DNA of 64,000 nt from Bacteroidales bacterium (GTDB lineage: Bacteria; Bacteroidota; Bacteroidia; Bacteroidales; Muribaculaceae). Position 1 is the stretch's first letter; every line of letters begins with the position of its first letter. Where the stretch lies: the NCBI GenBank assembly GCA_910575615.1, contig CAJTEX010000013.1:1-64000 (forward strand). Reading direction: 5' to 3'. Below, piece by piece: positions 1,202 through 17,092 of the stretch. The notes beneath the pieces were generated by a model. That model saw only the letters and a program-made list of their open reading frames with translations, ran no database searches and was not told where the DNA came from. A program made the position numbers and the translations under genes.

Positions 1202-3232
1202 ATGAGACCTATTTACATACTTTTATTTCTATTATACACAATTCCTGTTTTTGCGACTCCTGTTACCCCGGATGTCGCACTAAAGAGATTGCGAGGTAAG
1301 AATATGTCCCGAGTCATAGGGTTTCTCCAGACACCACAATTTCAAATTTCTAAAATTATGACTGACAGTTGCGGCAACAACACTGTGTATCTGTTTGATT
1401 CTAAAGGCGGTTTTGTTGTCACACCTGCAGATGATGCATTTCCTGCATTGCTGGGATATGGCGACGGCCAATTAAATGATTCTGCCGACAATCTCCCAGT
1501 CGGATTTAACGAGTGGCTGCAATATATGAGCCGATGGATTGCAGAAGCTACCGTTGATGAGAACGAATTTACTGTCGGTTATTCTGTAGGAGAGGCAATC
1601 GCCCCACTCTGTATGACCTCATGGGGACAGGGCGAACCATTCAATCTTGAGTGTCCGGAATATAACGGAGAGAGATGTCTTTCGGGATGCGTGGCTACAG
1701 CAATGGCTCAGGTGATGAAATATCACAACTGGCCACCACAAGGTAAAGGTGAACTGACATACCGTGCCGAAAAAATAGGAACAGATATCTATACTGATTT
1801 CTCTCAATATGTGCTTGACTGGGAAAATATGCTCTGTGACTACTCTGCATCATCCGCAACCGAACAGCAGAAACAAGCCGTGGCCCATCTGATGCGTGGT
1901 TTAGGGGGAAGTGCATGTATGAATTATTTCCCGACGGCTTCCGGTGCAGATATCAACGATGCCACTCAAGCACTGCTGAAATATTGGGATTACAGCGAAG
2001 ATATCAGATATGTTCGCCGTAGCTGGTTCACGCTTCGAGACTGGTCTCAGTTGCTCTACGATGCTTTGAAGAATTACGGCCCGATATTGTATGGCGGCTT
2101 TTCGGTTTCATCTGCCCATGCATTCGTATGCGACGGCTATGACGGCGAAGGGTTGTTCCACTTCAATTGGGGATGGGACGGAAAGGCTGACGGGTATTTT
2201 GCCATTGACTTCCTTAATCCTGTTGTAGAGGAAGAACCATGGAAAACGGGCTACAACGGCAGTCAGAGTGCTTTGTTGAACATTCATCCACGTTCGCCGG
2301 AAAATCCCGGAATACGCTCCTATACAGTGTGGCTTGACTCATACTATATCGACCCTGCGACACAATTCAGGGATGAAATGCCACATATCCTTCATCCTGG
2401 CGATAATTTCAAGATGAGAGGTGAATGTGTCAACTACGGCCCGTTTGCAATTCCAGCTGGCTCAAAATTCGCTACATTATTCACTCCCTATTATGATGGA
2501 ACAGTAGTCCCATCCAACATTGTGGAACTTAAATCTGATTTGAAAATTTACGGCAGTTTTGACAGTGAAATGAAGATTGTTCCTGAAGGATTGTCTGACG
2601 GACTCTATTCACTTGAAAACGATTTTTATGTCAGCCCTTCAGGCTGGGGACATAGTATCCTTATGCCCGTTTCAGGACAATACTGCGCTTTGGTGACAAA
2701 CAACGGCTCCGATATCCGGTTCATTGAATCCATATTTCCTCCTAAAATAGAGGTAGCAGACTTTCCGGATCAAATTGACCTGAACTCATCGAATGTATTT
2801 CATGCAACCATATGCAATTCCAGACCTCGAGAACTTGAACGTACTGTGCGCGTTGAACTTATACAGGATGGGACAGTGAAGGGATGGTCTCCAGGGGTTA
2901 ATGCTTCTTGGGAACCGGAAGGGACAATTGACTTGGAACTGAGTGTCGATAATTGGATATGGAAAGATAAGAGCAATTCCCATCCCGGCAAATATGTCTT
3001 ATGTCTGAGTATCCGCAACACCTATGGAGATATATGGATACCAATGGGACAAGGTAAAAAGGTAACAGTCTCAGACTCTGCCGGTATAGACGCAGTCAAA
3101 GTAGATGACATCGCAGAGGATGCGATGTATGACCTGTACGGAAGGAGAGTATCGGGAGATACCAATGCTCTGTCTTCGGGGCTATATGTCAGACTGCATA
3201 ACGGTGTTGTTTCAAAAATTGTCATCCATTAA
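1202..3232 (+). CDS. Secreted C10 (streptopain-type) cysteine peptidase
   Basis: Cysteine endopeptidase of family C10 (SpeB/PrtT/Bfp type), predicted to be exported. Residues 1-18 form a signal peptide (short n-region, hydrophobic IYILLFLLYTIPVFA). A propeptide-like segment covers about 20-125. The catalytic domain follows, with Cys163 in SGCVATAMAQ and His306 in SSAHAFVCDGYDG, then the usual FNWGWDG motif. Residues about 370-640 look like beta-rich accessory domains. The end (DLYGRRV...GLYVRL...SKIVIH) resembles the C-terminal tail found on many secreted Bacteroidales proteins, possibly a type IX sorting-like module. At 676 aa it is longer than SpeB, as usual in Bacteroidales. No inhibitor gene lies beside it. 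It sits alone between the IS remnant and feoB in AT-rich DNA, suggesting acquisition. Confidence 0.88.
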   Translation: MRPIYILLFLLYTIPVFATPVTPDVALKRLRGKNMSRVIGFLQTPQFQISKIMTDSCGNNTVYLFDSKGGFVVTPADDAFPALLGYGDGQLNDSADNLPVGFNEWLQYMSRWIAEATVDENEFTVGYSVGEAIAPLCMTSWGQGEPFNLECPEYNGERCLSGCVATAMAQVMKYHNWPPQGKGELTYRAEKIGTDIYTDFSQYVLDWENMLCDYSASSATEQQKQAVAHLMRGLGGSACMNYFPTASGADINDATQALLKYWDYSEDIRYVRRSWFTLRDWSQLLYDALKNYGPILYGGFSVSSAHAFVCDGYDGEGLFHFNWGWDGKADGYFAIDFLNPVVEEEPWKTGYNGSQSALLNIHPRSPENPGIRSYTVWLDSYYIDPATQFRDEMPHILHPGDNFKMRGECVNYGPFAIPAGSKFATLFTPYYDGTVVPSNIVELKSDLKIYGSFDSEMKIVPEGLSDGLYSLENDFYVSPSGWGHSILMPVSGQYCALVTNNGSDIRFIESIFPPKIEVADFPDQIDLNSSNVFHATICNSRPRELERTVRVELIQDGTVKGWSPGVNASWEPEGTIDLELSVDNWIWKDKSNSHPGKYVLCLSIRNTYGDIWIPMGQGKKVTVSDSAGIDAVKVDDIAEDAMYDLYGRRVSGDTNALSSGLYVRLHNGVVSKIVIH

Positions 3233-6241: not shown

Positions 6242-6312
6242 ACCAGATTCAAGACAATCAGAAGGCTGCCTGCCCGGCATACGACTGAAAGTAAACAACA
6301 CCAGATTCAAGA
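6242..6312 (+). repeat. 13-bp direct repeat upstream of frc
   Basis: ACCAGATTCAAGA occurs perfectly at 6242-6254 and again at 6300-6312, 58 bp apart start to start; the second copy ends 13 bp before the frc start codon. No TAnnTTTG box was found in this leader, so the repeat may mark a regulator site or a duplicated leader element. Function is unknown. Confidence 0.5.
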
Positions 6313-6325
6313 ACCCCTGAAAACT

Positions 6326-7615
6326 ATGAATACAGCTCCTCTTCAAGGCATAAAAGTGATAGATTTCACCAGTGTGCAGTCCGGTCCCTCATGTACCCAG
6401 CTTCTCGCATGGCTTGGGGCCGATGTAATCAAAATCGAACGTCCAGGCACAGGCGACGCGACACGCGACGAGTTGCAGTTTGACCCGGATTGTCCCAGCT
6501 ACTATTTTCTGCAGCTTAACTCCGACAAGAAGTCGCTCGCCCTTGACGCGGCCACTCCCGACGGCAAGGCGATTCTGACCAAGCTCCTCGAGACAGCCGA
6601 TGTCTTCATCGAGAACCTGCATCCCGGAGCTATGGACAAGCTCGGGTTCAGTTGGGAGAATGTCCACAAAATCAATCCCCGCTGTGTCTATGCCACCATA
6701 AAGGGTTTCCCCCTTTCCTCACGTTACAAAGATCTCAAGGCATACGAGCCTGTGGCACAGGTGACCGCAGGCGCCGCCTCCACCACCGGCTGGTGGGAGG
6801 GACCAGACAATATCCCCACCCAGTCTGGCGCGGCCCTCGGCGACTCCAACACCGGTATGCATTGCGCGATTGGCATCCTGGCAGCATTGCTGCAACGCCA
6901 GCACACAGGTGAAGGCTGCTTCGTCTACCAGTCGATGCACAATGCTTGCCTCAACCTCTGCCGAATCAAGACCCGCGACCAGCTGACTCTCGACCGCATT
7001 GGCTACCTGACCCAGTTCCCGCAGTACCCCGACCAGAAGTTCGGCGACTTTGTCCCGCGAAGCGGCAACCAGGAGGGGTCTGGCGTGCTGGGATGGACTT
7101 ACAAGTGCAAAGGCTGGGAGACCGACCCCAACGCTTATGCCTACATCATCCTGCAGCGTGGAGCCAAGGATTTCGAGCTGGCCTGCAAGGCTCTCGGGTT
7201 TGAAGACTGGCTGACCAACCCTGATTTCAACACCGCCGATGCCCGCGACCGTCACAAACAGGAGATTTACAAGCGTGTAGGTGAGTGGGCGATTGACAAG
7301 ACCAAATATGAGGTCACCGAAATCCTGTCGAAGGCCGGTGTGCCTGTGGCTCCTGTCCTCAACACAAAGGAGATAATGACCGATGAAACCCTCTATGACG
7401 GCAACACCCTTGTCAAAATCAACCAAGGCGGCAAGATCGGTGAGTTTGTCACTGTGGGAGTCCCATTCACATTGTCAAACTTCCAACCCACCTATGGGCC
7501 TTGCCCGACACTTGGCGGCAACACCACCGAGGTGTTGAAGGCCTACGGCTACTCCGACGATGAAATCGCGGCATTCGCCAAAAACGGCACAACCGCGCCT
7601 TTGGCCAAGTCGTGA
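6326..7615 (+). CDS. frc: Formyl-CoA:oxalate CoA-transferase
   Basis: Class III CoA-transferase that moves CoA from formyl-CoA to oxalate, giving oxalyl-CoA and formate; cytoplasmic first step of the oxalate cycle. At 429 aa it matches the usual length of about 428. The catalytic Asp is D173 in the family motif GDSNTGMH. Other hallmarks are IKIERPGTGD at the N-terminus, GGAAxTTG-type sequence (AGAASTTGWWEGP) and LGWTYKCKGWETD. The mobile glycine loop, GGGGQ in the Oxalobacter enzyme as I recall it, reads EGSGV here. The Trp after TRG in that enzyme is also not kept (TRDEL). The gene order frc-oxc-AEC carrier matches E. coli yfdW-yfdU-yfdV, which supports oxalate as substrate. Confidence 0.92.
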   Translation: MNTAPLQGIKVIDFTSVQSGPSCTQLLAWLGADVIKIERPGTGDATRDELQFDPDCPSYYFLQLNSDKKSLALDAATPDGKAILTKLLETADVFIENLHPGAMDKLGFSWENVHKINPRCVYATIKGFPLSSRYKDLKAYEPVAQVTAGAASTTGWWEGPDNIPTQSGAALGDSNTGMHCAIGILAALLQRQHTGEGCFVYQSMHNACLNLCRIKTRDQLTLDRIGYLTQFPQYPDQKFGDFVPRSGNQEGSGVLGWTYKCKGWETDPNAYAYIILQRGAKDFELACKALGFEDWLTNPDFNTADARDRHKQEIYKRVGEWAIDKTKYEVTEILSKAGVPVAPVLNTKEIMTDETLYDGNTLVKINQGGKIGEFVTVGVPFTLSNFQPTYGPCPTLGGNTTEVLKAYGYSDDEIAAFAKNGTTAPLAKS

Positions 7616-7630
7616 CATCCGACGAAGACT

Positions 7631-7646
7631 TGCGACATATGTCGCA
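7631..7646. promoter_or_regulatory. 16-bp perfect palindrome between frc and oxc
   Basis: TGCGACATATGTCGCA is fully self-complementary and begins 16 nt after the frc stop codon. No T-run follows, so it looks more like a dimeric-regulator operator or an RNA processing hairpin than an intrinsic terminator. Its role is unknown. Confidence 0.45.
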
Positions 7647-7655
7647 GTGACATAG

Positions 7656-7772
7656 AGTTGTTAAGTTTTTAGGTTTAGGTTGTTTCGTTTTCGGCACCTG
7701 CACCACGGCCGGCCCCCCTGTCGACCGTCGTCAGTGGCTGGTCACGGGCAGGCGCTTGAAAACTTAACAACT
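7656..7772. repeat. 14-bp inverted repeat flanking the frc-oxc spacer
   Basis: AGTTGTTAAGTTTT at 7656-7669 is repeated in inverse orientation at 7759-7772, enclosing about 89 nt. The two arms could pair in the transcript as the base of a larger fold, or each could be a binding site. The enclosed segment is GC-rich and non-coding. The 3' arm ends 40 nt before the oxc start codon. Confidence 0.5.
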
Positions 7773-7812
7773 TAGTTTTTACACAACATCCAGAATTTCA
7801 AAACCTATCTAT

Positions 7813-9576
7813 ATGTCAGACACAAACTCAACAATGTCAGCCTCCACAGCCAAAGGTTGTGGCTGCAATAAGACAGCTCCCAAATTTCCCGACCAGGTCA
7901 CCGGCATGTATGTGCTTGCCCGCGCCCTTCAGAAAGTCGGCATCGACACAATGTACGGACTCGTAGGCATACCGGTCACAGAGGTCGCATATATCGCCCA
8001 GGGCCAGGGAATCCGCTTTGTAGGGTTCCGCCATGAACAGCAGGCAGGTATGGCCGCCCAGACCCATGGTTACCTTACCGGCAAGCCCGGAGTCTTGCTG
8101 ACGGTGTCGTCGCTCGGATTCCTTAACGGGTTGACGGCTACTGCCAACGCCACGGTCAACTGCTATCCTATGATTCAGATTTCCGGTTCTTCCGTGCGCG
8201 AACCGATCGACCTCGACCAAGGCACATACGAGGGGCTTGACCAGCTCAATATGGCCAAGCCGCTTGTAAAGGCGGCCTACCGTGTCAACAAAGCCGAGGA
8301 CATCCCTGTCGGAGTTGTCAGGGCTTACCGCGCGGCGGTCTCCGGACGGCCTGGCGGCGTGTATCTCGACATAACGACCCCGGCCCTCGGCCAGGTGCTT
8401 GACCATGATGTCGCCGAGGCGTTGTTGCAGACACCTGTTGACCCATGTCCCGATATGATTCCCTCTCCCGAATCAGTGGAGCGCGCTGTATCGCTGCTCG
8501 CTTCCGCCAAGAAGCCCGCATTTCTCTTCGGCAAGGGAGCCGCGTATGCCCGTGTCGAGGATTTGCTGAAGGAGCTGGTGGAGACCACCGGCATACCATA
8601 TTACCCGATGTCGATGGCCAAGGGGATTCTGCCCGACAACCATCAGTTGAGCGCGCTCGCATGCCGCTCCCAGATAATGGAGGAGGCCGATGTCGTGGTT
8701 CTTGTGGGGGCGCGACTCAACTGGTTGCTCAGCCGTGGCCAGGGGAAATGGAACCCTGCCGGAAAATTCATACAGCTCGACATAGACCCGCAGGAAATAG
8801 ATTGCAACCGACATATCGATGCTCCTGTCATCGGCGACCTGCGCAGTTCTCTCCAGGCGATTCTCTCCAGGCTCAAAGGGGTGTCGCTGTCGATGGATTC
8901 CTCTTGGGTGCCCGGTCTGCAGGCTCTCACCAAGGAGAAAAACTCGAAGTTTGCCGAGAGGCTTGCCGCAAAGACTGTGCCGATGACCCATTGGAGCGCG
9001 TTGAGCGCGGCCAAACCGGTGATTGAGGCCAACCCTGATGTGATTCTTGTCAATGAGGGGGCAAACACCCTTGACGACACGCGCGACACGATAGACATGG
9101 CTCTCCCGCGTCATCGCGTCGATTGCGCCACCTGGGCCATCATGGGCATGGGCATGGGATCCGCCATCGGAGCCGCGGTAGCCACCGGCAAGTCGGTGGT
9201 GGCCATAGAGGGTGACTCGGCGTTTGGTTTCTCCGGTATGGACTTCTCCACCATATGCCGTTTCAAGCTGCCTGTCACGGTCTGTGTCTTCAACAATGGA
9301 GGCATCTACAACGGCATAGGCAAACCGCTCGACAACACGTCAGACCCGGCCCCGACCACACTTGATGTCAACGCCCGGTATGACAAGCTTGGGGAGGCAT
9401 TCGGCGCAAAGACCTATTATGTCACCACCCCCGACGAGTTCGCCGAGGCGTTGAAAGAGGCCATTGCTTCAAAAGCTCCCGCCTTGATTGACGTGCAGCT
9501 GGCTGCCGACTCCGGCAAGGAGAGCGGCCACATAGGTTACCTCAATCCGGCCCCCCTGATTGACATAACCGTATAA
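7813..9576 (+). CDS. oxc: Oxalyl-CoA decarboxylase
   Basis: ThDP-dependent enzyme that decarboxylates oxalyl-CoA to formyl-CoA and CO2, regenerating the CoA donor for the transferase and consuming a proton. The 587 aa chain covers the whole family fold. The N-terminal ThDP domain has catalytic Glu75 in FRHEQQAG and the QGTYEGLDQ segment. The middle domain has LLGKGAAYA-like FGKGAAYARVED. The C-terminal ThDP/Mg domain carries EGDSAFGFSGMD ... NNGGIYNG. VNEGANTLDDTR is also diagnostic for OXC. The first 25 residues are an extra low-complexity segment with a GCGCNK cysteine pair not seen in the Oxalobacter protein. The spacer from frc is 197 bp and the carrier gene follows after 38 bp. Confidence 0.94.
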   Translation: MSDTNSTMSASTAKGCGCNKTAPKFPDQVTGMYVLARALQKVGIDTMYGLVGIPVTEVAYIAQGQGIRFVGFRHEQQAGMAAQTHGYLTGKPGVLLTVSSLGFLNGLTATANATVNCYPMIQISGSSVREPIDLDQGTYEGLDQLNMAKPLVKAAYRVNKAEDIPVGVVRAYRAAVSGRPGGVYLDITTPALGQVLDHDVAEALLQTPVDPCPDMIPSPESVERAVSLLASAKKPAFLFGKGAAYARVEDLLKELVETTGIPYYPMSMAKGILPDNHQLSALACRSQIMEEADVVVLVGARLNWLLSRGQGKWNPAGKFIQLDIDPQEIDCNRHIDAPVIGDLRSSLQAILSRLKGVSLSMDSSWVPGLQALTKEKNSKFAERLAAKTVPMTHWSALSAAKPVIEANPDVILVNEGANTLDDTRDTIDMALPRHRVDCATWAIMGMGMGSAIGAAVATGKSVVAIEGDSAFGFSGMDFSTICRFKLPVTVCVFNNGGIYNGIGKPLDNTSDPAPTTLDVNARYDKLGEAFGAKTYYVTTPDEFAEALKEAIASKAPALIDVQLAADSGKESGHIGYLNPAPLIDITV

Positions 9577-9614
9577 TTACTCCCAGACTTACAACCTTTC
9601 ACGTTTCAAGTAAT

Positions 9615-10589
9615 ATGTTACACATAATTTTATACGCGATTGTCCCTATCATCGTCGTGATGCTTGCCGGTTATATATCCGGCAAGAAGGGGATATTCAA
9701 CGGGGAGAATGCCAAGGCGTTCAACAAGGTGGTGCTCGATTACGCCTTGCCTGCCGCCCTGTTCGTGTCGATAGTCGACGCCTCCCGCGAGATGCTTGTG
9801 CAGGATATAAAACTGTCGCTGATTTCGCTGATAGTGATGATGTTCTGCTTCATGCTGGTTTACTACGTCTACAAATGGTGTTTCAAGAAAAACACCGGTG
9901 CAGACGCGGCGATCATGGCCTTGATTAGCGGCTCGTCGACAATCGGGTTCCTCGGTTTCGCGGTGCTGGAGCCTATATTCGGCACCACTCCGTATGTGGC
10001 GCTCGTCGTCGCCATCGTGGGAATCGTGGTCAACGCGGTAGGTATCCCGGTGGGCCTGTCGTTGCTCAACGCCTCCCTGGAGAAGACCAATCCCACGCCC
10101 GCCGGAAAGAAACGCCCGTCGGCATGGGCCCCGGTGCTTCACGCCCTCGCCCAGCCGGTGGCGTGGGCGCCTATCCTGGCGGTGATATGGGTGATTGTGG
10201 GTATTCCATGGCCCAAATGGGCATCCCCCTCGTTTGACCTTATCAAAGGGGCCAATGCCTCACTGGCCGTGTTTGCCGCAGGTGTGACCCTCTCCTCTGT
10301 CAAGGTTTCCATCAACTGGCAGGCTGTGCTTGGATCAATTATGAAGCTGATTGTCATGCCCGCGCTTCTGCTGGTGGTCGGCCTCATATTCAAGATGGAT
10401 CCCCTCAACCTGAAGATGCTTGTCGTGGCCGGCGCGTTGCCCCCTGCGTTCTCCGGTGTGATCATCGCCGACGAGTATGACACATATGTGGCCACAGGCA
10501 CATCGTCGCTCGCGTTGTCGGTGATACTGTTCATAGCCTTCTGCCCGCTATGGATATGGGTTACGGACATATGCATAAAGGCGTTCTGA
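9615..10589 (+). CDS. AEC-family transporter of the oxalate operon (YfdV-like)
   Basis: Polytopic inner-membrane carrier of the auxin efflux carrier family, 324 aa with about ten hydrophobic segments starting at residue 2. The AEC halves show the usual N-terminal VVMLAGYISGKKG and the C-terminal GALPPAFSGVIIADEYD. AEC members move carboxylates in bacteria, and E. coli yfdV, of the same family, lies beside frc/oxc. Position directly behind oxc therefore makes it the likely oxalate importer or oxalate/formate exchanger. This is inference from context; the protein itself shows only the family. It is unrelated to the MFS antiporter OxlT. Confidence 0.85.
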   Translation: MLHIILYAIVPIIVVMLAGYISGKKGIFNGENAKAFNKVVLDYALPAALFVSIVDASREMLVQDIKLSLISLIVMMFCFMLVYYVYKWCFKKNTGADAAIMALISGSSTIGFLGFAVLEPIFGTTPYVALVVAIVGIVVNAVGIPVGLSLLNASLEKTNPTPAGKKRPSAWAPVLHALAQPVAWAPILAVIWVIVGIPWPKWASPSFDLIKGANASLAVFAAGVTLSSVKVSINWQAVLGSIMKLIVMPALLLVVGLIFKMDPLNLKMLVVAGALPPAFSGVIIADEYDTYVATGTSSLALSVILFIAFCPLWIWVTDICIKAF

Positions 10590-10611
10590 CGTTTTTGTCT
10601 CGCCTTTGAAC

Positions 10612-10657
10612 CACATTCAGCCCGGAGTCGGCACAGGCCCTCTCCGGGCTGAATGTG
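10612..10657 (+). terminator. 16-bp hairpin closing the oxalate operon
   Basis: The arms 10612-10627 and 10642-10657 are perfect complements (CACATTCAGCCCGGAG and its reverse), with a 14-nt loop, 23 nt after the carrier stop codon. The T-tract after it is weak (atttcgc), but the stem is very stable and lies where an operon end is expected. Confidence 0.7.
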
Positions 10658-11999: not shown

Positions 12000-13784
12000 T
12001 CAGTCAAGTTTCAGCACGGCCAGGAACGCTTTCTGCGGCACCTGCACCGACCCGATCTGTTTCATGCGTTTCTTACCGGCTTTCTGCTTCTCAAGCAGTT
12101 TGCGCTTTCGCGAGACATCTCCTCCGTAACATTTGGCGGTCACATCCTTGCGCACAGCCTTGATGGTCTCCCTGGCGATGATTTTAGCGCCGATGGCAGC
12201 TTGGATTGCGATGTCAAACTGGTGGCGGGGAATCAGCTCCTTGAGTTTCTCACACATCCGGCGTCCGAACTGCACGGCGTTGTCGGCATGGGTGAGCGTC
12301 GACAGCGCGTCGACCGGTTCGCCGTTGAGCAGCACGTCGAGCTTTACGAGGCGGGAGTTGCGGAAGTCATGCAGGTGATAGTCGAATGAGGCGTAGCCTT
12401 TTGAGATAGACTTCAGTTTGTCGTAGAAGTCGATGACAATCTCGCCCAGGGGAATGTCGAAAATCAGTTCCACGCGGTTGCCGGATATGAATTCCTGTTT
12501 GACAAGCTCGCCGCGTTTGCCGAGGCAGAGGGTCATGATCGGGCCAATGAAGTCTGTGGTGGTGATGATTGAGGAGCGTATGTAGGGTTCCTCGATATGG
12601 TCGATGAGGGTGATTTCAGGCAGCCCGGAGGGATTATGCACCTCGCTCTCGTTGCCTTTCTTGTCAAACACCTTGTATGACACGTTGGGCACCGTGGTGA
12701 TGACTTCCATGTTGAATTCGCGGCTGAGGCGTTCCTGGATGATTTCCATATGGAGCAGTCCGAGGAATCCACACCTGAATCCGAATCCGAGTGCCATCGA
12801 CGATTCAGGCTGGAATGTCAGCGACGCGTCGTTAAGCTGCAGTTTCTCAAGTGAGCTGCGCAGGTTCTCGAAGTCTTCCGCCTCGATGGGGTAGACTCCG
12901 GCGAACACCATCGGCTTCACCTCCTCGAATCCGGCGATGGCCTCGGCCGGACGGTTGACATGGGTGATGGTGTCGCCGACTTTCACCTCCTTGGAGGTCT
13001 TGATGCCAGATATGATGTATCCCACATTGCCTGCCGACAGCTCTTTGCGGGGTGAGAGGTCCATTTTCAGGACACCGATTTCATCGGCATGGTACTCCTT
13101 GCCGGTGGCAACGAATTTCACGAAGTCATCCTTGCGGATTGTGCCGTTCTCGATCTTGAAGTAGGCGATGATTCCGCGGAACGGGTTGAACACAGAGTCG
13201 AAAATCAGGGCCTGCAACGGGGCCTCCGGGTCACCTTTCGGGGCTGGTACACGCTCCACGATGGCCCGCAGGATATCCTCCACGCCGATGCCGGTTTTTC
13301 CGCTTGCCCGTATTATCTCCTCACGTTTGCATCCGAGCAGGTCTACAATCTGGTCTTCCACCTCGTCGGGATTTGCGCTCTCAAGGTCAACTTTGTTGAT
13401 TACCGGGATGATTTCAAGGTCGGAATCGATGGCCATGTAGAGGTTGGATATGGTCTGGGCCTGTATACCCTGTGTCGCGTCGACAATTAGCAGCGCGCCC
13501 TCGCAGGCGGCTATCGAGCGCGACACCTCGTATGAGAAGTCGACATGCCCGGGGGTGTCGATGAGGTTGAGGGTGTATTCCTGGCCGTCGAGATGATAGT
13601 TCATCTGTATGGCGTGGCTTTTGATTGTGATGCCACGCTCGCGCTCGAGGTCCATGTCGTCGAGCACCTGCGCCTGCAGATCTTTTGAGTCAATGGTCTT
13701 GGTGTATTCGAGGAGGCGGTCGGCCAGGGTGCTTTTGCCGTGGTCGATATGGGCGATGATGCAGAAATTTCGGATATTCTTCAT
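12000..13784 (-). CDS. lepA: Elongation factor 4 (LepA)
   Basis: Ribosome-binding translational GTPase that back-translocates or rescues stalled ribosomes. The 594 aa length is standard. The G domain begins at once, with G1 AHIDHGKST (11-19), G3 DTPGHVDF and G4 NKVD. Domains II and III follow, then the LepA-specific C-terminal domain ([26 protein letters not shown]). The start codon overlaps the stop codon of the upstream AKR-ferredoxin gene as ATGA, so translation is probably coupled. The gene is the last of a three-gene minus-strand unit. Confidence 0.97.
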
Positions 13785-15589
13785 TTGTTCAAAAATTCAG
13801 TGATGGCGGCTAGGCACTCTTTGGGGGTGGCGAGGTCGCGGCATAGGGTCTCGACCGGACACCATCCGGTCTTGTCGCGGTTGACGACATGGTCGATTAC
13901 CTTGTCGTAAGTTGTCTTTATGTCATATCCGGAGAGGAGATTCAGGGCGAGACGGCTGATGACGGGGGTGTAAAGCTCCCTGACTCCGCCGAGAATCATC
14001 AGGGCGGCGGCTCCTTTGCCCACAATCTTGTCGGCGACGCGCGCGCCCTGGAGCATGTGCGGATGGTCGGTCAGCAACCAGTGTAGGTCGGAGACTCCGC
14101 GGCCCGTGTATGTTGTGACGCGTCCGTTGTCTACCACAAGTGTGGTGTCTCCCTTGTCGAGGAGCGCGACCAAGGCGCTCATCGCCGGAGGCACGCCGCG
14201 CCGCAGGCTTTCGGCGATGACATCCACACGGGCCATCTCGCCGGGAATGTCGATTTTTTGTGGGCAATGTCCGACACATTCCTTGCAGCCCACGCAATGG
14301 GATGCCTGGCGCAGCCTGGGCATAGCCCGGTCGTAGCCGACGAGAAACCTGCGCCGTGCTTCGGCATAGTTCTCTGCCTCGGGTGAGTCGGGAACCTGGC
14401 CCTGGTTGACACATTTGTTGTAGTGGGCGAAGATGGCCGGAATGTCGAGCCCGTAGGGGCAAGGCATGCAGTACTGGCATTCGTTGCATGGCACCGTCGG
14501 GTAGCTCGCTATGATTCCGGCTACTTTGTGGAGGAATCCGGTCTGCTCCTCGGTCAGTGGCACCAGAGGGCAGAATGAGCGGAGGTTGTCCTCCAGGTGG
14601 TCCATATATGTCATGCCTGACAGCACTGTCAGCACATTGGGATAGGTGCCGGCATATCTGAAGGCCCACGAGGCCACCGATTTCTGTGGCTCCTGCTCCT
14701 TTAGCAGCCTGACTACATGGTCGGGAAGCTTTGACAGACGTCCTCCCAGTAGAGGCTCCATTATTATCGCCGGGATGTCGCGTTTTGCCAGCTTGCCGTA
14801 AAGGTATTCGGCATTGGTGTTGCGCGGATTGATTTCCTTGGCATGCTCCCAGTCGAGGTAGTTGAGCTGAATCTGCACGAAGTCCCATTTGTATTTGTCG
14901 TGCCATTCAAGCAGCATGTCAAACAGGCGGATGTCGCCGTGATAGGAGAATCCGAGGTTGCGTATTCGGCCTGCCTCCCTCTCGGCTGCGAGGAAATCGA
15001 GCATACCGTTGTCGATGTAGCGGGCGTTGAACTCTTTGAGCGGTTCGTTGCCCATCCCTACGGCGTGGAGCAGCATGTAATCTATGTGGTCGGTCTGGAG
15101 CAACCGGAGTGAGTCGCGGTACATCTGTTCTGACTTCTCACGGGGCCAGGTCGATGGGTCGAAATTCGACAGCTTGGTGGCGACAAAATATTTGTCGCGC
15201 GGATGGCGGCTGAGGGCTATGCCGACAGCCTTCTCCGACCGACCCTTGCAGTAGGCGGGGGAGGTGTCGAAGTAGTTTACCCCATGCTTTATGGCTGTGT
15301 CGACAAGGCGGTTTACCTCCTCCTGGTCGATGAGGTCTTCCCCGGGGTTGTCAAAGTCGGGTTTGGTGGGCCAACGCATGCAGCCGTAGCCCAGCAACGA
15401 GACCTTGTCGCCGGTCGAGGGATTGACCCGGAGGGTCATCCTGTCGGTCGGAATCGGGGTCTGGGGCAGCTGGCTTTCGTCGGTGTCTCCATCTTTCTTG
15501 CCCGAACAGGCTGTCAGCAGGGGGGAGGTGGCGAGGGCCGCCAGGGCGGACTTGCGGAAGAAATCGCGGCGTGATATGTCGAATTTCAT
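13781..15589 (-). CDS. Tat-exported aldo/keto reductase-ferredoxin lipoprotein
   Basis: Predicted periplasmic redox enzyme of 602 aa. The N-terminus has a twin-arginine motif (SRRDFFRK, R7-R8) followed by a lipobox LTAC at 25-28, so it looks like a Tat-exported lipoprotein. Residues about 50-370 form an aldo/keto reductase barrel with the tetrad D108, Y113, K139 and H175. The C-terminal part carries two ferredoxin-type cysteine clusters ([13 protein letters not shown] and [13 protein letters not shown]). The upstream neighbour, 12 bp away, encodes a membrane polyferredoxin, which suggests electrons pass between them. The substrate is unknown. NADPH supply in the periplasm is unlikely, so the Fe-S part may replace it. 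Confidence 0.85.
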
Positions 15590-15601: not shown

Positions 15602-17092
15602 TCAGACGGTTCGGTGGATTTCGTGCCCCTCGACATAAATGGCCGAGAAAGGACGTGCCGGGCACAGGTTCTCGCAGGCTCCGCATCCTATGCATCGGGA
15701 CTCGTCGACGGCGGGAATCTTGCGGGAGTCGGGATTGGACGGGGCAGACGCCACCATCGTAATGGCTCCGACAAGACAGTGGCGGGCGCAGTTGCCGCAG
15801 TCCACATCGTCGGCGAGGACCACACAGTTTTTCGCCACCCAGACGGCGTGGCCAATCTGGGTCGAGCTTTTCTCCTCCCAGCTGATGGGCTTTATCGCCC
15901 CGGAGGGGCAGACATCAGAGCAGGCGTTGCATTCAGGGCGGCAATAGCCCCGGTCAAATTCCATATGAGGCTGCATGAAGCTGTCAAGGTCGGTCGACGG
16001 GCGCAGAACGCCGTTGGGGCATTCTGACACACACAGCTGGCAGGCGGTGCAGTGCTGTGAGAAGTTCTTTATGCTCGCCGCCCCGGCAGGCACCAGACGG
16101 GTGGCGCGTCTTGGCGGTTTCTTGTCAAGGATTTCAGCCAGTCCGCCGTCGACAGTCTTCTGTGCCTTGACGGCGGCGGCACCTCCGGCAGCCATGGCCC
16201 CGGCTATGAGGAAAGACCTGCGCCCTGAGTCGGCGGGAGTATCAGGCTTGGCGGCTTTTGAGGCCACAGCCTTGCGTGTTGTGTAGCTGATGGCCCCCTT
16301 GGAGCAGTCATCCACGCAGTCCATGCAGGCCACACACCGGCTCAGGTCGATTGTATGGTTTTTCGCGTCGATGCAGGAACTTTTGCAGCGGCGGGCGCAG
16401 CTGCCGCAGTTGATGCATTTCGAGGTGTCGATGACGGGGCGGAGGAGGCTTTGGCGAGACAGTAGCCCAAGTATGGTGCCGACCGGACAGATGGTGTTGC
16501 AGTAAATGCGGCCCCCTCGCCATGCGAGAACAGCGATTGTGACAAAGGTCACTGTCGCCACAATCAGCAAAGGCAGCGAGCCGATCCACACCTCGCGGCT
16601 GTAGACGGCGTAGCTGTCGTAACGTTCGGCCACCACGGCAAGCAGGTTGTTGACCCAGATGGCCAGGGGCTGCCCGAGGTTCTGCACCATACGCCCGTAG
16701 GCGCTGTATGGCGCGACAAGCGAGGCAATTGCGGTGAATCCGGCCGCCAGCAATATGACAAACACCGCCAGCGTCGCGTAGCGCAGCAGGGTGTGTGGCT
16801 TGCTGTGTCTGAAACGTTTTTTCTTTCCTTTGCGTCGCGAGGAGAGATATGAGACGATGTCCTGGAAGACCCCGAGCGGGCATATCACCGAGCAGTAGAC
16901 GCGGCCCATCAGGAGGGTCAACGCCACCAGGCCTATGACCACGATGGTGTTCAGGGCAAGCACCGCCGGTATAAACTGGATTTTCGCCATCCATCCCAGC
17001 CAGTGATGCAGAGTCCCGGTGAAGTCGAGAAACATCGCCGTGATGAGCAGCCAGAATATGATGGCGAGAGTTATGCGGATTTTACGCGGCAT
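15602..17092 (-). CDS. Membrane polyferredoxin, NapH-NapG-like fusion
   Basis: 496 aa integral membrane iron-sulfur protein. Residues 1-220 hold about four or five membrane segments and two CxxxCP motifs (YCSVICPLG, YCNTICPVG), as in NapH/NosR/CcoG proteins. Residues 226-263 form a 2x4Fe-4S ferredoxin. Residues 290-312 contain an internal twin-arginine-like segment (GRRSFLIAGAMAAGG), as would open a NapG/MauM ferredoxin. The rest has further cysteine clusters (CTACQLCVSECP, CRPECNACSDVCP, CGNCARHCL, CIGCGACENLCP). It thus looks like a NapH fused to a NapG. It probably takes quinol electrons and passes them to the neighbouring Tat-AKR lipoprotein. This role is inference. Confidence 0.82.
   Translation of the reverse strand: MPRKIRITLAIIFWLLITAMFLDFTGTLHHWLGWMAKIQFIPAVLALNTIVVIGLVALTLLMGRVYCSVICPLGVFQDIVSYLSSRRKGKKKRFRHSKPHTLLRYATLAVFVILLAAGFTAIASLVAPYSAYGRMVQNLGQPLAIWVNNLLAVVAERYDSYAVYSREVWIGSLPLLIVATVTFVTIAVLAWRGGRIYCNTICPVGTILGLLSRQSLLRPVIDTSKCINCGSCARRCKSSCIDAKNHTIDLSRCVACMDCVDDCSKGAISYTTRKAVASKAAKPDTPADSGRRSFLIAGAMAAGGAAAVKAQKTVDGGLAEILDKKPPRRATRLVPAGAASIKNFSQHCTACQLCVSECPNGVLRPSTDLDSFMQPHMEFDRGYCRPECNACSDVCPSGAIKPISWEEKSSTQIGHAVWVAKNCVVLADDVDCGNCARHCLVGAITMVASAPSNPDSRKIPAVDESRCIGCGACENLCPARPFSAIYVEGHEIHRTV

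Follow-up and report, generated by a model that had tools for sequence, protein, structure and literature searches.

Oxalate is the main acid in kidney stones, and the chemistry of formyl-coenzyme A (CoA) transferase (Frc) and oxalyl-CoA decarboxylase (Oxc) is established for both enzyme families. The present analysis concerns frc, oxc and an adjoining AEC-family carrier gene in a window of 64,000 nucleotides (the whole stretch analysed; positions 1 to 64,000 of the forward strand of contig CAJTEX010000013.1, assembly GCA_910575615.1) from a Bacteroidales bacterium of the family Muribaculaceae. The closest described system is that of S24-7, the same family, in which the frc/oxc pair was present in 19 of 30 genomes and a permease adjoined oxc in all 19, but was not found without the pair (Ormerod et al. 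2016, PMC4936053). This result was cited later (PMC10258309, PMC12045624). In addition, Bacteroidetes Frc and Oxc proteins were detected in the mouse gut metaproteome, with higher levels in faeces than in caecum (2017, PMC5348496), and oxc of several Muribaculaceae was detected in human metagenomes (PMC8062136). The present locus shows no difference of kind from the S24-7 pair, as it comprises the same two enzymes with a permease beside oxc. The main finding, the pair with its adjacent permease in this family, is correct but has been known since 2016, and the original prediction of such a cluster is thus not new. The S24-7 passages of the 2016 paper mention neither the carrier family, nor the Frc loop, nor a priming enzyme.

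The yfdXWUVE genes of E. coli share the order frc-oxc-yfdV with the source locus, and the identities to E. coli K-12 were 52% (Frc/YfdW), 54% (Oxc) and 49.1% (AEC/YfdV); however, yfdE was missing from the whole source genome and the Frc loop was different. The cluster is ordered like yfdWUV, as originally described, but that likeness and the term complete leave the missing yfdE out of account. The frc-oxc-AEC order was also the same on a Klebsiella plasmid and on Cetobacterium somerae plasmids, the latter carrying the nearest relatives in the plasmid collection (63%, 57% and 54%). The Cetobacterium cluster differed from the source in being plasmid-borne, in having a cupin gene upstream, and in keeping Q at Frc position 49. 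Oxalobacter formigenes has the same two-enzyme cycle and the same residues at the catalytic positions checked, but it uses OxlT where the source has an AEC carrier, and the Frc loop and the W48 position differ.

The trio lies in the source contig, with all genes on the plus strand and all frames open, as follows.

6326 to 7615, plus strand: frc, formyl-CoA:oxalate CoA-transferase (class III), 429 amino acids (from TIGR03253, identity to YfdW, and the tree).

7813 to 9576, plus strand: oxc, oxalyl-CoA decarboxylase (thiamine diphosphate dependent), 587 amino acids (from TIGR03254 and alignments to 2q27, 7ayg and 2c31).

9615 to 10589, plus strand: AEC-family carrier (PF03547), YfdV-like, 324 amino acids, putatively for oxalate uptake or oxalate/formate exchange (from Pfam and identities).

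These open frames agree with the predicted intact trio running in one direction. Frc scored 572.9 bits against the curated NCBIfam model TIGR03253 (cut-off 504.2) and Oxc scored 775.7 bits against the curated equivalog model TIGR03254 (cut-off 739.4), whereas the third protein scored 162.8 bits against PF03547 (cut-off 25.7), which places it in the AEC family. In alignments read by eye, Frc keeps the positions of O. formigenes Q17, R38, Y59, Y139, E140 and D169, with its Q18 and D173 corresponding to Q17 and D169, and Oxc keeps those of O. formigenes E56, Y120, E121, Y483 and S553 (aligned to 2q27, 7ayg and 2c31); these residues are presumed here to have their accepted roles. The two residues named in the original description, D173 (Frc) and E75 (Oxc), aligned with the Asp and Glu that are catalytic in the solved structures.

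The Frc tree contained 93 rows, namely 75 from the family (of 80, five short ones being dropped), 13 canonical formyl-CoA:oxalate CoA-transferases (FCOCT), 2 from Cetobacterium and 3 YfdE. The 75 family rows formed one clade (100/100), with Cetobacterium as its sister (100/100), and the E. coli and Klebsiella YfdW branched next (99/72). The three YfdE rows lay beyond the longest branch, leaving Frc on the FCOCT side, in a tree for which the program warned of long branches. A tree of 91 Oxc rows, built by a quick method and rooted at the midpoint, grouped the 81 family rows together (100) and joined Cetobacterium to E. coli and Klebsiella at 82; the placement of Cetobacterium thus differs slightly between the two enzymes. 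Both identities were thus supported: Frc grouped with the formyl-CoA transferases and Oxc with the oxalyl-CoA decarboxylases, rather than with non-oxalate members, although the Frc loop is non-canonical. At its N terminus, Oxc also carries a tail of some 28 residues that contains a CxC motif (GCGCNK; window 7813-7890). This tail was rejected as a conserved motif, since it is variable, with CxC in some relatives and no Cys or no tail in many rows.

Next, related loci were compared, taken as the best 80 of 281 relatives found by an Oxc scan of a named-genome collection. Frc was located upstream of oxc in 79 of the 80 loci (some partial at a contig start), the AEC gene downstream of oxc in 77, and all three genes occurred in order in 76. 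The other four loci were cut by contig ends beside oxc (L031 at the contig start; L015, L046 and L068 at the contig end), so that no trio gene was missing in any of the 80 loci whose contig reaches that far. The trio is therefore not a chance grouping, and the neighbourhood in Muribaculaceae agrees with the predicted order. Named carriers of the locus included Duncaniella muris, Muribaculum caecicola and Heminiphilus faecis, which points to Muribaculaceae as the family of the source. Five records (L035, L041, L050, L061 and L077) were labelled Desulfovibrio, Staphylococcus, Paenibacillus or Clostridium, but their Frc nests inside the Muribaculaceae clade, and they are probably mislabelled bins.

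The trio is flanked by a fused FeoA-FeoB gene upstream and by a gene for a leucine-rich-repeat (LRR) protein downstream, beyond which lies a gene that we take to be lepA. The FeoAB and LRR flanks were common to only L002, L069 and L072 among the 80 loci; in two of these the trio proteins were 91-99% identical to those of the window, and in the third 71-96%. The source genome is a draft of 89 contigs (99.75% complete), and a decayed, contaminating or mis-assembled trio without function might be suspected for that reason. The three open frames, the recurrence of the trio across the retrieved loci and its retention in the same-flank relatives make this explanation highly improbable, and the conservation already contradicts it. 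L072 (676-11632) was an observation of another kind: its AEC protein was 96% and its FeoAB, LRR and LepA proteins were 85-97% identical to those of the window, but its Frc and Oxc were only 84% and 71% identical, and both fell in tree groups other than those of the window proteins. Such a mosaic cluster suggests that members of the family have exchanged frc and oxc.

Across the family, a class III CoA-transferase was found in 80 of 118 genomes (at least 95% complete, source genome included), and in the family scan every one of the 80 matched Oxc with an E value no higher than 6.7e-128. Among the 20 listed of the 38 genomes without the CoA-transferase, no Oxc match was better than 5.9e-64, which is the level of related enzymes. 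Some Oxc match occurred in 241 of 297 family genomes but also in all 14 control genomes, indicating that the model also catches other thiamine-diphosphate enzymes. Outside the family but within the phylum, Frc was detected in 0 of 246 genomes at E 1e-100, two of the 20 genomes listed being of the same order.

On this evidence, the locus is likely to be a Muribaculaceae oxalate-degradation cluster. The AEC carrier would import oxalate, Frc would transfer CoA from formyl-CoA to oxalate to give oxalyl-CoA and formate, and Oxc would convert oxalyl-CoA to formyl-CoA and CO2 with the use of one proton per turn. The net reaction would be oxalate plus a proton to formate plus CO2, from which the cell may gain energy or a rise in pH. 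The activity of Frc and Oxc in this organism is predicted from their sequences. No formate-tetrahydrofolate ligase (Fhs) was found in the genome by a search that was positive in 4 of 14 control genomes, a Bacteroides included, and formate is therefore probably exported, which is the simplest reading. It would leave through the AEC carrier or the single FNT-family channel of the genome, which lies on another contig. A published comparison listed oxc, frc, K07088 and a formate transporter as family-specific functions, with the ligase in other Bacteroidales families (PMC6381624).

The nearest relatives of the carrier, among the matches listed (40 of 43 records) from the plasmid collection, were from Cetobacterium (53.7%), E. 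coli (49.1%) and Klebsiella (48.0%), followed by an E. coli plasmid AEC protein (45.5%, in four pieces); the next AEC protein was at 31.7%. The AEC gene follows oxc in Cetobacterium, Klebsiella and E. coli K-12, and none was annotated directly after the frc/oxc pair in the Acetobacter, Azospirillum and Paracoccus records opened. An OxlT-type antiporter (TIGR04259) was not detected in the source genome, the best score being 24.2 bits against a cut-off of 335, but this is a weak control as none of the 14 control genomes passes. Of the proposal that the carrier matches YfdV rather than OxlT, the nearness to YfdV-type proteins (49% identity) and the lack of any OxlT over the cut-off stand, within the limits of that control, whereas assignment to YfdV itself is not reached. 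The carrier may be an oxalate importer, as was also inferred in the 2016 paper (PMC4936053).

Several points weigh against the oxalate-degradation reading. The Frc loop is not of the canonical glycine-rich form, E occupies the W48/Q48 position, and no priming CoA-transferase was seen. The carrier scored 306.5 bits against the YfdV equivalog NF007384, below the cut-off of 404, and YfdV itself has no assigned substrate, oxalate/formate antiport not having been detected in E. coli (PMC3720670). Finally, just 84 of the 297 family genomes were over the Oxc cut-off, many others scoring slightly below it.

The active-site loops distinguish FCOCT, with a glycine-rich, oxalate-binding loop, from acetyl-CoA:oxalate CoA-transferase (ACOCT), with GNxH (PMC3720670). 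The corresponding stretch of the source gene is the following.

7055 to 7096, plus strand: codons of the Frc loop, PRSGNQEGSGVLGW, residues 244-257, a variant of the canonical PRGGNAGGGGQPGW (from the alignment and a six-frame check).

The source loop reads EGSGVLG in place of the canonical GGGGQPG. The form EG(S/G)GVLG was present in 75/75 full-length family rows, (G/S)GGGQPG in 13/13 canonical FCOCT rows (10 records, Pseudomonadota and Actinomycetota), GNRH in 3/3 YfdE rows, and EGGQVLG in 2/2 Cetobacterium rows, the last being nearest to the family loop within the compared set. The six-frame check of the 80 loci found the variant loop in 77 and the canonical loop in none, with L031, L036 and L052 cut before the loop. 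In total, 24 Frc positions set the 75 rows of the family apart from the 13 canonical ones. At residue 49 the family has E instead of Q, the equivalents being W48 in O. formigenes and Q48 in E. coli, and Cetobacterium keeps Q. Because the compared set was without Lactobacillus, Bifidobacterium or other Firmicutes Frc, the variant loop may extend more widely. The two C. somerae records (L085 and L095; Fusobacteriota, from catfish intestine and zebrafish samples) are plasmids that carry the trio with the family-like loop, a hint of transfer between gut phyla.

These changes could mean that Frc now uses another acyl-CoA donor or another acid, in which case the pathway would handle oxalate in a different manner or have some other small acid as its substrate. 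The replacement of the canonical loop in 77/77 readable loci, the 24 separating positions and the long stem branch in the tree are in line with such a shift. However, Frc is over the TIGR03253 cut-off, the other active-site residues checked are all kept, and frc stands beside oxc in every locus but the one cut at the contig start (79/80), which makes a changed substrate quite unlikely. No paper on the Frc loop of this family was found in a literature search whose reach mostly excluded subscription journals, and the variant has apparently not been tested by anyone. The loop variant and the missing primer are the parts of the finding that merit a bench test, and the former offers a cheap and direct way to see whether a curated-model annotation gives the true substrates of an enzyme that is the sole class III CoA-transferase observed in these genomes.

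YfdE was proposed to start the cycle by forming oxalyl-CoA from acetyl-CoA when formyl-CoA is scarce, and a promiscuous Frc was suggested as the starter in O. formigenes (PMC3720670). The source genome contained one class III CoA-transferase (PF02515) locus, Frc itself, and each of the 80 CoA-transferase-positive family genomes (of 118) likewise contained one, the protein being matched as two pieces of one locus in 22 of them. In G219 the two pieces lay in frames of 339 and 151 residues, and the gene may be broken; in G069 a third match was below the cut-off and contained a stop codon. With a single locus per genome, a YfdE-type ACOCT was thus absent from the source genome and from the 80 positive genomes. 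It would have shown, since Frc finds YfdE at E 7.7e-43 among solved structures and at 1e-46 in E. coli.

Without YfdE, the family must start the cycle otherwise, by a promiscuous Frc or by an unrelated enzyme, and the priming may fall to Frc itself. A more speculative proposal, which we regard as possible but doubtful, is that the Frc of Muribaculaceae, perhaps together with that of Cetobacterium, is a third functional type of oxalate CoA-transferase, whose changed loop and E49 would enable a single enzyme not only to turn the formyl-CoA:oxalate cycle but also to initiate it with a common acyl-CoA such as succinyl-CoA or acetyl-CoA. If so, these gut bacteria would degrade oxalate without the YfdE priming enzyme.

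The cluster might instead serve mainly as an acid-tolerance module as in E. coli. The two enzymes would then consume protons at the cost of small amounts of oxalate, little oxalate would be removed on balance, and the carrier would export formate or some other acid. Acid tolerance induced by oxalate in E. coli requires both YfdW and YfdU, with an apparently secondary role for YfdV (PMC3720670), and Frc and Oxc of Bacteroidetes increase in mouse faeces along with glutamate decarboxylase (PMC5348496). In contrast, the scanned neighbours of the present trio were FeoAB and LRR, with no evgAS, yfdX or yfdE; yfdX and evgAS were sought among these neighbours only and not elsewhere in the genome. Moreover, the trait was commoner in the plant-glycan and host-glycan guilds (10/12 and 4/5) than in the alpha-glucan guild (5/13) (PMC4936053). 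Acid tolerance as the main function therefore appears unlikely, and it can coexist with oxalate degradation.

The transcriptional organization was considered from two further features.

7651 to 7781, plus strand: frc-oxc spacer block of 131 bases with 14-bp inverted-repeat ends (7656-7669 and 7759-7772), forming a strong RNA hairpin (fold z -5.1).

10612 to 10657, plus strand: 3' hairpin with 16-bp perfect arms, a 14-base loop and no T tract (from sequence inspection).

The predicted operon was said to be closed by a 16-bp terminator hairpin. The hairpin with its perfect arms is present, but the bases that follow it (ATTTCGCAG) contain no T run, and the frc-oxc spacer holds a strong hairpin as well; the locus is therefore better called a conserved co-directional cluster, in which co-transcription of the three genes is plausible from their arrangement. 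The terminator scan is no test of the 3' hairpin, since it allows loops of 3-8 bases and the loop here has 14. L002, L069 and L072 have hairpins of different sequence downstream of the AEC gene.

The spacer block was 89-98% identical in the syntenic L002, L069 and L072, while its flanks diverge. A mobile repeat was rejected, as the block had one match in its own genome (one site at up to 3 mismatches with its first 23 bases). Among 14 genomes of the genus, long matches occurred in its own genome and three others only, and these three copies are taken as L069, L002 and L072 or very near genomes because length and identity are the same. A scan of the 297 family genomes gave 17 with a match at E 0.01, those beyond the four being short (19-43 bases) and T-rich or G+C-rich. 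The block had no Rfam match, with one sub-threshold Rfam miRNA match elsewhere, and none of the 42 pairs of its consensus fold was altered on both sides across four sequences, giving no covariation support.

Folding of the family spacers, cut to 160 bases with 40 shuffles each, gave z < -3 in 48 of the 64 frc-oxc spacers with a length of 70 bases or more (80 measured) and in 47 of 57 such oxc-AEC spacers (of 78); the oxc-AEC gap of the window, at 38 bases, was left out. Of the 120-base stretches that follow AEC, 45 of 75 passed the same threshold, compared with 2 of 73 stretches before frc and 1 of 81 within oxc. Within the window, z < -3 was found for 8 of the 16 gaps between co-directional genes, 5 of the 6 between convergent genes and 1 of the 8 between divergent genes, all genes being picked mechanically, and three of the eight strong co-directional gaps flank genes of the oxalate cluster. 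The spacer hairpin was therefore rejected as cluster-specific, similar hairpins being common after genes across the window, and such hairpins are read as ordinary transcript-end or processing structures.

Elsewhere in the window, positions 1202-3232 encode a C10 cysteine peptidase domain with a Spi-type inhibitor propeptide domain (PF01640 and PF13734). An aldo/keto reductase with a 4Fe-4S match and a fused C-terminal DUF1893 domain is encoded at 13781-15589, and it is adjoined by a gene for a multi-cluster ferredoxin protein at 15602-17092.

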